From assembly GCA_024696005.1 (NCBI GenBank), contig JAILHF010000052.1, forward strand, positions 186,001 to 250,000: a stretch of 64,000 bases of DNA, read 5' to 3'. This stretch comes from Lachnospiraceae bacterium (lineage in GTDB: Bacteria > Bacillota > Clostridia > Lachnospirales > Lachnospiraceae). The notes under the pieces are model-generated. The model was not told the DNA's origin. It was given only the letters and a program-made list of their open reading frames with translations, and did not search any database. Positions 17,226-24,399 of this stretch are shown here, piece after piece. The position numbers were made by a program, and so were the translations under genes. The stretch's first letter is position 1; each line of letters opens with the position of its first letter.

Positions 17226-20200
17226 TCAGGAGATCTCCCGCAACGCCGCCTCAAACATATCCTGGTCTCCTATGGAGGCCTTGGAACGCAGCTGTGCATG
17301 GATCCGGATCCGTACCGTGATCTGGTTCCCCTGCAATTCGTTGATCGCCTCCATGGCATCCACGATCTGCCGGCTTATCTCCCGGACACCTTCTTCATTG
17401 TCGATGTGGACCAGCATTCCGAAGACCGATTGTCTCGTCCGTGCCAATACGCTGTTCCTGCCGAAGAGCTCCAGCAGTCTGTCCGAAACCACACGCAGAA
17501 GCGAAGTGGCAAAGGCCTCTCCGAAGTCCTCCACGATCTGCTCGTGAAAACTGTTGCGGAAAACAAACATGGCGTAATCTTTTCCCAGTTCCGTATACTG
17601 TTCCCCGAAATCAATGATGCTGTCGATCAGGGCATGGGCATTCTGAAGCCCCGTAACGGGATCCACATGGAAGGGATTTTTCCGGTTCAGGATGCGCTCC
17701 TGCTCCTCCTCCCAATCCACAAAATAGCCGACTACGCCCTGTATCCGCCCGTTCTCGTACAAAGGGAATTCATTGAAGCACATGTCACGGACGATGCCGT
17801 GGGTGATCACCTTTCCGAAAGCATCCCGGATAAACTCTCCCGTCCGGAGAAGATTCTCTTCCCTCTCCCGTATCTGGGGTTCTCCCAAAAGCCAGCCGAT
17901 CTCTTCATCGGTCTTCCCGAGGATCTCACTCATATCCCCGACCCCGAAATAGTCCAGGAAACTGCGGCTGGCCCCGCGCAAACGGAGATCCGTATCCTTC
18001 CAGAAGAACATGACCGGCCCGTGCTGGACGATATTTTCGCATACGCAGGCATATTCCAGCGCCTTCCCTTCCAGAGCGGCCGTGATCACCGTCCGCCCCC
18101 GCAAAGAATCTACCGCCTCTATGTCGTCGATCTGCGTCTCCGGAAGAGGCTTTATGCAATACAGATATTCTTTACAATCGGTGCCGGCAATCGGCATGAG
18201 ATACTGCTCCGACCAGACATAGCTTCCGTCACCCTGACGCTGGCGGAAAACATCAACCACATACCCCTTCCCGGATCTTTCCACACGCTCCCGCAGGGTG
18301 TCATAATCCAGAAAGGCCTTGGCCCGTTCCCGGTCATCCGCAAAGATCCCGAGACGGATCGCTGCCGGGGTCTTTCCCCGCAGATCCTTCGCCCACTCAC
18401 TCTCGGTCCGGAAATGCCCGCAGCCCCCCAGCAGTGAGGACAGGGTATTTTTTTCCAGATCCATGAGGAGCACATCCGTAAAGAGCAGGTTCAGATCTTT
18501 CAGTTTCTGGTCCAGCTTCTCCCGCTCCTCCTTCAGATTGTCCCGGCTGATATCCTGGATCTTTCCCAGGATCAGAGCACATTCGGAGTTCTCCGCGATC
18601 ATCCGTCCGCGGAAGCAGAAATACTTCCCTCCCACCGTATAGTAGAAGGTCTCTTCTTTCCCGCTTCGTCTGATCTGATCGGCGATCTCCCGGTATTTCG
18701 GTAACAACGGCGATCCGGGATTGTAAACCTTCCGGTCGATCTCTTCCAGCCGCAGGCCCTCCATGCCGATCTGCGCTTTATACCATTTGTTCATGAACAG
18801 GGTTCGAAGCTGTCTCCCGTCATCCTCCAGCACCTCCAGAGGGATGTCCGTATCCCGTATGATGCTGCCGGCGACTTCATAAAAATGCCTCCACTTTCTG
18901 GTCTCAATGGGGATCTGCTTTTCCCCCATGTGGGAAAACAGATCAAGGATGGGCTCGGGTTTGCCGTAATAATACCCTTGTATCATGTCACAGCCGATCT
19001 CCCGCAAAAAATCCAGCTGTTCCTGGGTCTCCACTCCTTCCGCGACCGTGCAGATCCCGATATCCTTCGCCATGTTGACCGTAGAACGCACGATGCTTCG
19101 TGAGATCCCGGTAAAGGGTCTCAGGAAACCCATGTCAAGCTTCAGCGTATCGAAATGGTAATCCTTCAGCAGGTTCAGCGAAGAATAGCCGCTCCCGAAA
19201 TCATCCATCCACACCTCATATCCGGCTTTGCGGAAGCGTTCGATCACATCCCTCATCAGCGCCTCATCCGAGGCGATCATGCTTTCCGTGATCTCGATAT
19301 GCAGGGCATCCCTGGGGATATCGTACTTCTTGACAGATTTTTCCACCACCTCGAGCATGTCGCAAAGTACAAAATCGATGCGCGAGAAATTGACTGAGAC
19401 CGGCACCACCGGCAGGCCCTGCCCGGCGCGCTCATGTATCATCTCGCATACCTTCTCCACGACAAAGCAATCCAGCTTGTGGATGAGGTTCTGATTCTCC
19501 AAAATGCTGATGAACTCGTCGGGTTTGAGAAAACCGACATAGGGATCGATCCAGCGTACCAGGGATTCCATGCCGCAGAGGCAGCCGGTCAGGGAGCGCA
19601 CCACCGGCTGGAAATAAATCTTTACCCAGTCCTTCTCCAGCGCTTCATCGATCTTTTCCGCCACGTAATCCCGCGTCTGCAGGGTTTTCGCCAGATCTTC
19701 CGTATAAACGGAAACATAGCGGGTGATGTCATGCTTGATAAAATCACAGGCGAGTTTTGCCCTGGACAGAGACGCTTCCACTTCCAGGCCCGGCCCCATT
19801 CTGAGACGACAGATGCCGAACTTGCAGATCACGTCGAATTTCTTTTCAAACTGTTCGCGAAAGATGCGTGCCGCTTCTTCCGTGCTGCTCTCCACGCCGT
19901 CAAACTTCGTGAAAACGGCAAAGTGGTCATCGGAAACACGGGCGATGAACGAGTCGGCATAGATCCGGCGCAGCAGATCCGCGATCCCCTTCAGCAGTGC
20001 ATCCCCTTCATCCGCGCCTCTTTCGATATTGAGAAGCTTGAATCTGACCAGATTCAGATAGACGATGGCATATTCATTCTCTTCGGATGAACGGCAATCA
20101 TTATTCTTCTTTTCGATATACTTCCGCAGCCTGTTCTTTCCGTACAGGCCCGTCACGGTATCCAGGTCACTGCCGGTAAGGTCGGATCGATGAAGATACA

Positions 20201-20573
20201 GGCAGGAATAAAAAACCTCGCCTTCCTCCGGTTCCTCAACAAGTCCCCAGTGAAGAACCACCCTGTGCCTGTTCCCGTTTTTGGTCAGGATATGGAAAAA
20301 AACATAGCCCGAACGGCTCTGTGATTCCGCGAGCTGCATCTCGATCTCCCGCATGACTCCGGCAAATTCCTGCTCCCTGACGAGCCCGCGGAAACTTCCG
20401 CCGGCCAGTTCATGCAGTTCTTCCGTGCTCCCGCATTCATACAGCTCGGCCAAACGTTCGCTGACGCACAAAAGCTCGTGATCGTTCCCGGCGCGCCATA
20501 TAAATGCCCCGCCGCTCATGCGATCCGTAAACTCTTTGCCGAAGCGATCCGGAGATCGCACGTCATCTTTCAT
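17226..20573 (-). CDS. large GGDEF-like / EAL / PAS signalling protein
   Basis: A 1115-residue cytoplasmic multidomain protein. Order: PAS-like domain (20-130), degenerate GGDEF (137-300, motif RVSDDHF), EAL (305-560), PAS-like region (570-700), a second PAS-containing region (710-940), and a second GGDEF-like domain (955-1100) whose catalytic motif is replaced by RTRQSVF. EAL residues are conserved (MESLVRW, VNFSRIDF, HIEITES, MDDFGSGYSS, LKLDMGF, AEGVET, QGYYYGKP), so phosphodiesterase activity is likely, while neither GGDEF should be active. Start at 20573 has GGAG seven bases upstream and a near-consensus promoter. The first 560 residues parallel the protein at 3299-5044, pointing to an internal gene family. 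Confidence 0.88.
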   Translation of the reverse strand: MKDDVRSPDRFGKEFTDRMSGGAFIWRAGNDHELLCVSERLAELYECGSTEELHELAGGSFRGLVREQEFAGVMREIEMQLAESQSRSGYVFFHILTKNGNRHRVVLHWGLVEEPEEGEVFYSCLYLHRSDLTGSDLDTVTGLYGKNRLRKYIEKKNNDCRSSEENEYAIVYLNLVRFKLLNIERGADEGDALLKGIADLLRRIYADSFIARVSDDHFAVFTKFDGVESSTEEAARIFREQFEKKFDVICKFGICRLRMGPGLEVEASLSRAKLACDFIKHDITRYVSVYTEDLAKTLQTRDYVAEKIDEALEKDWVKIYFQPVVRSLTGCLCGMESLVRWIDPYVGFLKPDEFISILENQNLIHKLDCFVVEKVCEMIHERAGQGLPVVPVSVNFSRIDFVLCDMLEVVEKSVKKYDIPRDALHIEITESMIASDEALMRDVIERFRKAGYEVWMDDFGSGYSSLNLLKDYHFDTLKLDMGFLRPFTGISRSIVRSTVNMAKDIGICTVAEGVETQEQLDFLREIGCDMIQGYYYGKPEPILDLFSHMGEKQIPIETRKWRHFYEVAGSIIRDTDIPLEVLEDDGRQLRTLFMNKWYKAQIGMEGLRLEEIDRKVYNPGSPLLPKYREIADQIRRSGKEETFYYTVGGKYFCFRGRMIAENSECALILGKIQDISRDNLKEEREKLDQKLKDLNLLFTDVLLMDLEKNTLSSLLGGCGHFRTESEWAKDLRGKTPAAIRLGIFADDRERAKAFLDYDTLRERVERSGKGYVVDVFRQRQGDGSYVWSEQYLMPIAGTDCKEYLYCIKPLPETQIDDIEAVDSLRGRTVITAALEGKALEYACVCENIVQHGPVMFFWKDTDLRLRGASRSFLDYFGVGDMSEILGKTDEEIGWLLGEPQIREREENLLRTGEFIRDAFGKVITHGIVRDMCFNEFPLYENGRIQGVVGYFVDWEEEQERILNRKNPFHVDPVTGLQNAHALIDSIIDFGEQYTELGKDYAMFVFRNSFHEQIVEDFGEAFATSLLRVVSDRLLELFGRNSVLARTRQSVFGMLVHIDNEEGVREISRQIVDAMEAINELQGNQITVRIRIHAQLRSKASIGDQDMFEAALREIS

Positions 20574-22232: not shown

Positions 22233-23006
22233 TCAATCCGGAAATTCACCGTTGAAATAGTATTCCTCCACCACATACCCGGTCCTGGCGTCAAGCTTGA
22301 TCTGACTGTATTCATTTAACTGATACGAATAATAAAGGATATCCCGCTCTTCGTCATACTCCAGGCGATAGGTCCCATAGATCTCGCCCGTAGTACGGTC
22401 GACCATCATTTTGTTCTTGTTCTGCTCCGCCAGGCTGATCGCTTTCTCCGCCAGTTCATCCCCGTCGAGCAGCCCCGAGGTATCCAGCTTCCTGACCGGC
22501 GTTCCGCGGCCGCCGTCTACCAGGTTCGGATAAGGAAGATCATCGTCCGTCCGGAAGAAGACATTCGGGATGATCGCTCCGTTCAGGTATTGATACGCGT
22601 TCATGCACGGCTCGTCCGTGATGCTGTTCCGGAAGCTTCCGCAGATATACACGTCCCGGCTCACATGCTGATCCGCTTCCTCCAGATAGTCCAGTATCTC
22701 CTGCCTTTCTTTCTCATCGGCATGCCGGTTTTCAAACAGCCGTTCCGAATAATAGATATGCTGCCCGATCTGCAGGATCTCCTCGGCGTGAACCGGCTTC
22801 GGCTCCGACGTCGACGCCGACGGAAGGACGACGTTTTTGATCACGTCAGGGATCTGAATATCCACCTTCTGCTTCTGTCCTGCGTTGCTTCCCGAATTGT
22901 TTCCCGCATTGCTTCCCAGACTCAAAAACAGAACGGTCGCTAAAACTCCGCCGCCGATCAGCACAAATGCCAATATCCCCAGAAGGATCTTTGTTTTTCT
23001 TTCCAT
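22233..23006 (-). CDS. membrane-anchored extracytoplasmic protein of unknown function
   Basis: About 257 residues. A single N-terminal transmembrane helix (residues 7-30, ILLGILAFVLIGGGVLATVL) is followed by a Ser/Asn/Gly linker and a soluble domain outside the cell. The C-terminus DILYYSYQLNEYSQIKLDAR followed by TGYVVEEYYFNG resembles the strand pattern of PepSY-like domains (hydrophobic strand, then DxxTGxV), but I would not call it firmly. Two overlapping ATGs at 23009 and 23006 follow AAGGGG; the second has better spacing. The terminator of the TrpB2 gene lies just past its stop in the opposite direction. Confidence 0.7.
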   Translation of the reverse strand: MERKTKILLGILAFVLIGGGVLATVLFLSLGSNAGNNSGSNAGQKQKVDIQIPDVIKNVVLPSASTSEPKPVHAEEILQIGQHIYYSERLFENRHADEKERQEILDYLEEADQHVSRDVYICGSFRNSITDEPCMNAYQYLNGAIIPNVFFRTDDDLPYPNLVDGGRGTPVRKLDTSGLLDGDELAEKAISLAEQNKNKMMVDRTTGEIYGTYRLEYDEERDILYYSYQLNEYSQIKLDARTGYVVEEYYFNGEFPD

Positions 23007-23062
23007 CATCTTTCCCCTTTCCGGTCCTTATTTACTGATACGGATGCAATGCAACGGATTTA

Positions 23063-23506
23063 TGGCAGTTTGGCGGATTTTTTCTGCCAAGCGCAGCACG
23101 CTTCCGGCGGGAAGCTCTCTGAATGGACCGCTATAGCGAGCGAATGTCGAATTGTTCCGTTCGCAAGACGGCTTTGCGGGATGAGAGGCAAAGATGGAAT
23201 GGAGCAGAAGCACATAAGTCCGGGCACCACTCCGGAGCCACGCAGCTCTAAGGCGCTGCTTTCATTTTAGGTACAGCCCGGGACCGCTCGAGACACAGCA
23301 TCCCTGCTGTGGCTCTCGCTCGATCCGCCATCCGTGGCGGCTCGTCCCTATTTTCATCATGCAGCTTCAAGAGCTGACGGGCTCCTCCGCAACGTGCCGG
23401 GGACTTATGTCTTCTGCTCTTCCCGTAAGCTGCTTCATTCATCCCGCAAAGCCGCATGCTCACTGCACTGCGGGCAGATGGATAAGGTTGGTCGAAGACC
23501 TGAACC
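23063..23506. ncRNA. large nested foldback, candidate structured RNA or repeat element
   Basis: The gap 23010-23553 holds a series of mutually nested complementary segments: 23169-23184 with 23439-23454 (16 perfect base pairs), 23202-23210 with 23411-23419, 23213-23221 with 23401-23409, 23223-23227 with 23394-23398, 23235-23239 with 23380-23384, 23243-23249 with 23370-23376, 23255-23259 with 23361-23365, and 23280-23284 with 23344-23348. The inner loop carries two strong hairpins, 23289-23318 and 23325-23340. Outside lie hairpins 23070-23090, 23100-23115 and 23486-23506. Short mismatched stretches separate the helices, as in a folded RNA. No promoter or terminator fixes the strand, and no known family was recognised. 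Confidence 0.65.
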
Positions 23507-23553
23507 TCGGCAGAAGTCCCCCTTTATAAACCGGAGTCGCTCCCGGTCCCGGA

Positions 23554-24399
23554 TCACTCCGCGAGTTCCCGCTCCGAGCGGCGTTTTTTCAGATACAGGA
23601 TGAGAGAACCTGCATGATGAATGATGAAGACCGCCACCAGCATGAAAAGGTGGACGTAAAAAGCGCAGACGATATAGTAGTTCTTCTCCAGAAGATAGCC
23701 CCTCGAAAAGCCGAAGAAGAACAGAAAGCTGCTGAGCGCCAGGCAAAGAAGCAGCAGATAGCAGTTCCGGAACATGTTGACCAGAGATGCCAGGAAATCC
23801 CGGAACGAGGCGTCAAAATAGACAAAGCGCCCGACCATGAGACCGAGGTAATACATCATGACGGGATGATACTCACTTTCGTCACCGACACTGTATAAAT
23901 ACAGGAGGATAAAGATGCAATAGAACATGGCAAGCATCCGGACACAGGCCTTTTCGCCCCGGCCTGTCTTTTTGAGCGGGATGACAAGCCGATCAAGCAG
24001 GGAATTCAGCAAACAGGACAGACAGATCAGCAGCAGGAGCATGAAATCCTTGCCGCTTCCCCAAAGCTCCAGAAAGCCGTCCAGGAAAGCCGAACCGGTA
24101 CCGCCGCCCATTTCCTGCGCTTTGGCATAGATATGATTGATCACGACATAGGCGCAGGAAAACGACAATACCGAGGTTCCCGCGATGATCATCTCAAAGA
24201 AGCGCTGCACACGGTTTCGAACGGTTCCCGCAAAAAATTCTTCCGCGTCGTCCTCCTCTTCCCGCAGGACGTTGCGGGATATCCATGCGCCTCCCGTGAT
24301 CAGGAGGATGCAGAATACGACTCCCAGCAAGGCCATGAACAGAAACAGGAGCTTTTGCCCCCCGCTGAAGTCCGGATTGATATATGCCTCGATCGTCAT
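23554..24399 (-). CDS. polytopic membrane protein of unknown function
   Basis: A 281-residue integral membrane protein with about seven predicted helices. The first helix spans residues 17-40 (LLFLFMALLGVVFCILLITG), a charged cytoplasmic segment REEEDDAEEFF follows, and the C-terminus ends in a basic/acidic tail KKRRSERELAE. No transport or enzymatic motif is visible. The ribosome site is weak (AGGGAA close to the ATG). It is 81 bases downstream of the SGNH lipoprotein gene and may be the last gene of the GH51/AT3/SGNH operon. The large foldback element lies directly beyond its stop codon. Confidence 0.75.
   Translation of the reverse strand: MTIEAYINPDFSGGQKLLFLFMALLGVVFCILLITGGAWISRNVLREEEDDAEEFFAGTVRNRVQRFFEMIIAGTSVLSFSCAYVVINHIYAKAQEMGGGTGSAFLDGFLELWGSGKDFMLLLLICLSCLLNSLLDRLVIPLKKTGRGEKACVRMLAMFYCIFILLYLYSVGDESEYHPVMMYYLGLMVGRFVYFDASFRDFLASLVNMFRNCYLLLLCLALSSFLFFFGFSRGYLLEKNYYIVCAFYVHLFMLVAVFIIHHAGSLILYLKKRRSERELAE

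Follow-up and report, generated by a model that had tools for sequence, protein, structure and literature searches.

The window, by which we mean the whole 64,000-nt stretch of DNA analysed here, contains a large intergenic foldback whose two neighbouring genes are both codirectional with its RNA strand (Table 1). The foldback is a full-length copy of the known RNA family TwoAYGGAY (RF01731), the sole Rfam family above threshold in a cmscan of the entire window, and the locus is an ordinary member of that family. A permissive Rfam scan of positions 22900-23700, accepting E values up to 1, returned no family besides RF01731 and thereby rules out ROOL, GOLLD, OLE and raiA as identities; the original prediction, in which no family had been recognised, had mentioned the first two as large RNAs of rumen and gut Clostridia. 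It had also proposed a new structured RNA or repeat family. The locus does hold a large structured element, one that covaries in the manner of an RNA and also belongs to a repeat family, but the family is not new because the element matches RF01731. A promoter scan of the same interval (22900-23700) gave one promoter-like site, on the plus strand at 23651. Two genes away from the element, a 1115-aa protein with GGDEF, EAL and PAS domains is encoded at 17226-20573 on the minus strand.

The region 23010-23560 folds at -241.8 kcal/mol on the plus strand (z -7.9) and at -241.2 kcal/mol on the minus strand (z -6.5), and none of 100 shuffles folded as well on either strand, bearing out the nested foldback that had been predicted as a structure beyond chance. 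Folding energy by itself cannot pick the strand of a foldback, and the original prediction had considered the element readable from either one; the strand is not open, however, because the Rfam match and the ANGGA loops both lie on the minus strand. The predicted outermost pair, 23169/23454, corresponds to the outer stem of the unit, in which 23455-23439 pairs with 23184-23169 on the minus strand, and the two predicted closing hairpins are the family's two loop-bearing hairpins, H1 and H2. The loop of H1 (ACGGAT) fits the AYGGAY signature, and that of H2 (AGGGAT) fits ANGGAY, with R replacing Y. The further hairpins predicted toward 23063 and past 23468 lie outside the unit that is common to other copies. 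This unit exceeds the Rfam model by ∼70-75 nt on each side. In the excerpts available of the respective sources, Rfam 15 lists two further covarying pairs for TwoAYGGAY (PMC11701678), and a 2025 preprint terms the motif relatively unexplored (PMC11661157).

Table 1. Features of the TwoAYGGAY locus and its neighbouring genes (window coordinates)
Feature	Coordinates	Strand	Basis
Upstream gene on the element's strand, 281 aa, apparently a membrane protein	23554..24399	-	No Pfam match
Downstream gene on the element's strand, 258 aa	22233..23009	-	No Pfam match
Whole repeated unit, type A TwoAYGGAY, ∼315 nt	23154..23468	-	11 type A copies of the window's genome aligned; similarity ends there
RF01731 TwoAYGGAY core	23227..23392	-	cmscan 96.6 bits, gathering score 43, model positions 1-168 (full length)
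Outer stem, 5' arm, outside the Rfam model	23439..23455	-	Consensus structure of 11 copies; letters checked
Hairpin H1, loop ACGGAT (CsrA-type ANGGAN)	23325..23340	-	Loop letters in sequence and alignment
Hairpin H2, loop AGGGAT (CsrA-type ANGGAN)	23294..23311	-	ANGGA in 47/47 aligned copies
Outer stem, 3' arm, outside the Rfam model	23169..23184	-	Consensus structure of 11 copies; letters checked

The genome of the window (G000; other G numbers denote the compared genomes) holds at least 24 copies of TwoAYGGAY, a lower bound since 38 of 149 candidates were scored. The 20 copies retrieved with 1-kb flanks fall into two subfamilies, type A (n=11, the window copy among them) and type B (n=9). 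Within each type, similarity breaks off at sharp ends, and the flanks beyond the element are not common to the copies. The end motifs of type A lie 306-312 nt apart in 11 of 11 copies, and those of type B 212-216 nt apart in the four copies that could be delimited, from eight tried. None of these 20 copies looks coding: the codon-model score inside the element is at most 3.2 in 20/20, as against 16 to 100 for the neighbouring genes picked. One type B copy (G000:C54:78072-80237) has a 5' arm that appears to be broken by inserted sequence carrying an inverted repeat of its own.

TwoAYGGAY was found in 26 of the 60 genomes searched, all of them within the genus (26/35, G000 included, versus 0/25 outside it), and the RNA-positive congeners have 1 to 21 matches each. 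The 73 copies extracted from the genus have one core in common, while their outer stems are lineage-specific. At broader scale, the RNA was detected at E 0.001 in 36 of the 391 genomes of a class sample (27 passing the Rfam cut-off), with two or more matches in 27 of these 36, and in 45 of the 299 genomes of a sample of the window's family spanning 298 genera (43 passing); absences in both samples are soft, as the class search scored at most seven candidates per genome and the family search nine at most, under stricter filters. Records with the type B core comprise nine Lachnospiraceae MAG contigs, including sheep-rumen and goat-omasum isolates. A single exact match to the type B core pattern also occurs in a Candidatus Krumholzibacteriia MAG contig (JAICFA010000001.1, 2190-2212).

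Some copies occur in compound arrangements. Eight divergent head-to-head RNA pairs, retrieved because they are head-to-head and thus not a random sample, were seen in G018, G020, G031 and G032, with cores 117-270 nt apart; in G018 and G032 the two arms come from different subfamilies, and the same composite recurs. Tandem direct copies are present at G030:C118 and G004:C13, 334 and 219 nt apart.

Comparison of the copies points to a conserved structure. After removal of 24 of the 73 extracted copies, each over 93% similar to one that was retained, and of two of the remaining 49 (one truncated, one interrupted), RNAalifold on a MAFFT alignment of the 47 non-redundant copies gave 22 consensus pairs. 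Compensatory changes, the absence of which the original prediction had named as counter-evidence, are present in 18 of them. Paired letters fill 96.7% of the cells, compared with 73.6% when the 3' letters are shuffled, a control inflated by the kinship of the copies, and with 29-48% after displacement of the partners by 1-3 columns, a comparison biased in favour of the consensus, which was derived from the same alignment. The covariation score is 0.670 against 0.217 in the control, and further pair types are only mildly above control (46 versus 41.9, a value reached in 30 of 500 shuffles). A structure-free origin of the pairing appears unlikely because of the size of the difference in paired cells, despite the caveats of alignment and kinship. 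Among 11 copies of G000, both sides have changed in 15 of 96 pairs. Judged from these alignments, the core is conserved either at the level of RNA or at that of single-stranded DNA, two states that structure conservation alone cannot separate.

Insertion polymorphism among close relatives provides the evidence for mobility. The copy at locus G008:C91 is missing from G016:C27 and G019:C34, where both flanks are 93-94% identical. The copy at locus G019:C83 is missing in G008 (flanks 97 and 92% identical), G016 (93 and 87%) and G023 (82 and 88%); G008 retains a short outer hairpin there, so its absence possibly reflects an internal deletion. The origin of a 13-nt direct repeat seen at G019:C83 is ambiguous, and G008:C174 may likewise owe its state to an internal deletion instead of being an untouched empty site bearing a 13-nt duplication, since the hairpin left behind there also borders another copy. 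A third copy (G019:C38) is common to G012, G016 and G023 and partly kept in G008. An Rfam scan confirmed these calls, with RNA in 0 of 5 empty loci and 2 of 2 filled ones. For the window copy itself, the upstream gene has orthologues in six congeners (54-67% protein identity), and the scan of these six loci, from which three remoter orthologues (29-31% identity) were left out, found RNA in 0/6; this is weak evidence for movement because the sites are distant. In the relatives compared, the window's downstream gene does not adjoin, so that no empty site of the window copy was obtained. A TPP riboswitch lies near the G018 orthologue of the upstream gene (L092 3318-3420, plus strand).

Many dispersed non-coding copies with defined ends and insertion polymorphism among close relatives are the features of a MITE-like element. 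TwoAYGGAY thus behaves as a dispersed, non-coding mobile foldback, and we infer transposition as the cause. A rival account takes the copies for a stationary multigene family of sponge sRNAs under selection, expanded through ordinary duplication and not by transposition. The compensatory changes between G000 copies lend it some substance, suggesting that individual copies are maintained. Segment duplication would, however, give copies common flanks outside the element, which they lack, and neither presence and absence between flanks of 93-94% identity nor the lineage-specific bursts suit a stationary family, which we therefore consider very improbable. The original prediction had also asked about a known DNA-level mobile repeat with the same boundaries: the element is indeed a repeat that is dispersed and polymorphic for insertion, but we found no DNA-level repeat described earlier that corresponds to it.

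The same observations could be accommodated by a purely DNA-level palindromic repeat of the MITE or REP/BIME kind, whose hairpins would serve as single-stranded DNA for a transposase acting in trans, with the ANGGA loops as a transposase recognition feature and any RNA role incidental. High copy number, intergenic location, foldback extending to the ends, absence from relatives and the occurrence of head-to-head pairs all agree with such a repeat, as does a conserved structure that is equally compatible with single-stranded DNA. Against it, no match to a Y1 transposase (PF01797) was found in G000, while 14 of the 35 genomes of that search have one, and a REP mobilised by Y1/RAYT was rejected on this ground. 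Nor does target duplication in type A rise above expectation (6 nt in common in 0/11 copies; 4 nt in 8/11 versus 6.7 expected). The loop letters, which fit the consensus of the RNA-binding protein CsrA, and the distribution of csrA, both described below, are further points against a DNA-level repeat, which we regard as rather unlikely. Carriage by phage or plasmid was rejected, the window element being unmatched in phage and plasmid collections; in IMG/VR, the two core patterns had no exact match.

Genomic context bears on a different possibility, that the copies act as cis-regulatory leaders in the 5' region of the downstream gene, via CsrA or another ligand, and that their common structure reflects this local role. 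The downstream gene is on the same strand in 8 of 9 type B copies, one of which lies between genes read by eye as nrdD and nrdG; the window copy, too, has codirectional neighbours, and Rfam types RF01731 as Cis-reg. Type A copies, by contrast, lack a strand bias (5 of 11), the downstream genes look unrelated, and visual inspection suggests that several type A copies sit upstream of promoter-like sequence. In Weinberg et al. (2010), the motif is rated a probable RNA that is probably not cis-regulatory (PMC2864571, in the part of the text available). A leader function as the general explanation is improbable.

H2 carries ANGGA in every aligned copy, and of 181 nearly gap-free columns only 11 are invariant, four of which are the A, G, G and A of this loop. 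In H1, GGA is kept in 45 of 47 copies, and the leading A is often missing. In the full set of 73 copies, GGA has been lost from H1 in 11 (nine in G008, G012, G016 and G019; two in G014 and G033), a count made by eye in a set where the stem near H1 of one subfamily itself contains GGA. In these H1-loss subfamilies, H2 still reads ATGGAT in the copies folded, and H1 of G023 retains AGGAT. A further 21 copies came from ten additional class genomes and from one of the same family; a GGA-less loop occurs in two of them (G235, G084), and in one G114 copy the loop GGA depends on the fold chosen.

These letters recall the sites recognised by CsrA, for which the available part of PMC7652899 gives RUACARGGAUGU as the SELEX consensus, the ANGGAN hexaloop, and a spacing of 10-63 nt at which two sites are bridged. 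The H1 and H2 loops, 30 nt apart, fall inside this range, and the CsrA of G000 has L4 and R44. Two points weigh against a CsrA role: a single ANGGAN hairpin on a 4-bp stem is nothing rare, with 24 in the window, and 11 of the 73 copies no longer have GGA in H1. A 2014 paper had already observed that both TwoAYGGAY hairpins fit the CsrA-binding motif and had proposed CsrA-binding sRNAs in Clostridia, at a time when all identified sRNAs that sequester CsrA came from Gammaproteobacteria (PMC4333381, from the excerpt available). The two conserved loops look like CsrA docking sites, which would probably be bound as such.

The distribution of csrA is consistent with this assignment at broad taxonomic scale. 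In the family sample, csrA is present in 154 of the 299 genomes (152 passing the Pfam cut-off), namely in 44 of the 45 RNA-positive and 110 of the 254 RNA-negative ones (odds ratio 57.6, p = 1.7e-13, computed, like the class statistic, without phylogenetic correction); G607 is the lone RNA-positive genome in this sample without csrA. In the class sample, csrA occurs in 31 of 36 RNA-positive genomes versus 94 of 355 others (p = 2.2e-12). There is no association at genus level, where 13 of the 16 RNA-positive and all 8 RNA-negative genomes have csrA, the call in G001 resting on a 20-position match. The association thus exists at family and class level and not within the genus. Since csrA marks flagellated lineages, lifestyle is an uncontrolled confounder of it.

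Several genomes depart from the pattern, and persistence of the element in some genomes without csrA is what a DNA-level repeat would allow. No csrA match was obtained in the RNA-positive G020, G013 and G008. G020, rated 100% complete and carrying 11 copies, has FliW and no csrA match, with none visible beside FliW. At the FliW locus itself (G020:C77:8733-9098), neither csrA nor recognisable flagellar genes adjoin. Within the class, csrA is present in only 5 of 9 RNA-positive genomes of one family (f45), and five RNA-positive genomes with completeness ratings of 80-98% have neither csrA nor FliW, yet keep the loops in most copies read. The strong association in the family sample, on the other hand, is not predicted by a repeat acting purely as DNA.

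On balance, we favour with modest confidence a dispersed mobile foldback built around a TwoAYGGAY core, whose paired CsrA loops allow the copies to titrate CsrA or to place it on mRNAs. The elements would move from one intergenic site to another in the manner of a miniature mobile repeat, presumably by transposition. If transcribed, the minus-strand RNA would fold into a long interrupted helix ending in the two ANGGA-loop hairpins, and a CsrA dimer bridging both loops would be the most likely action. Copies might then jointly titrate CsrA, and a copy located within an mRNA could put CsrA on that message.

The near-restriction of the RNA to csrA-bearing genera of the family also admits a reading toward which we are tentative and lean against, namely that these are selfish or domesticated mobile elements carrying paired CsrA sites around the genome, that each insertion would add a sponge unit or bring a new transcript under Csr control, and that their distribution reflects dependence on CsrA. 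Such dependence, if true, could for instance lie in CsrA stabilising the RNA of the element or preventing harm to the host.

It is the behaviour of the TwoAYGGAY family, more than the window locus, that is of interest. The function of this RNA has been unexplained since 2010, and its link to CsrA was itself proposed in 2014 (PMC4333381, in the text available); the new support offered here is the csrA association in the family sample. High-copy mobile behaviour, together with near-absence from genomes without csrA in a family sample drawn at one per genus, turns a motif-based guess into a testable system. Within the searchable text of the open-access literature on TwoAYGGAY, CsrA, and interspersed or palindromic repeats, no description of TwoAYGGAY as a high-copy mobile repeat was found. 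A sponge spreading as a mobile repeat in Clostridia would, if true, be new, and would be comparable to the mobile repeats that redistribute regulatory sites in eukaryotes.

Relative to known systems, the element combines features of three groups. Like RF01731 as modelled, it presents two NGGA-loop hairpins on a long interrupted helix, but its unit is larger than the model and it is one of at least 24 copies. With MITEs and REP/BIME repeats it has in common that it is short, non-coding, palindromic, intergenic and present in high copy number, with some inverted pairs; unlike them, it has a two-hairpin core kept by compensatory change across unrelated sequences, with no linked transposase (Y1 was sought) and no target duplication found (type A). 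Like the CsrA-sponge sRNAs CsrB, CsrC, RsmX, RsmY and RsmZ, it has paired GGA hexaloop hairpins at bridging distance and is a predicted CsrA binder (PMC4333381, as far as the available text goes). In contrast to these sRNAs, which are encoded by one or few genes, TwoAYGGAY exists as dispersed mobile copies with two loops per unit, in hosts of the class Clostridia, and its CsrA binding is predicted from sequence.
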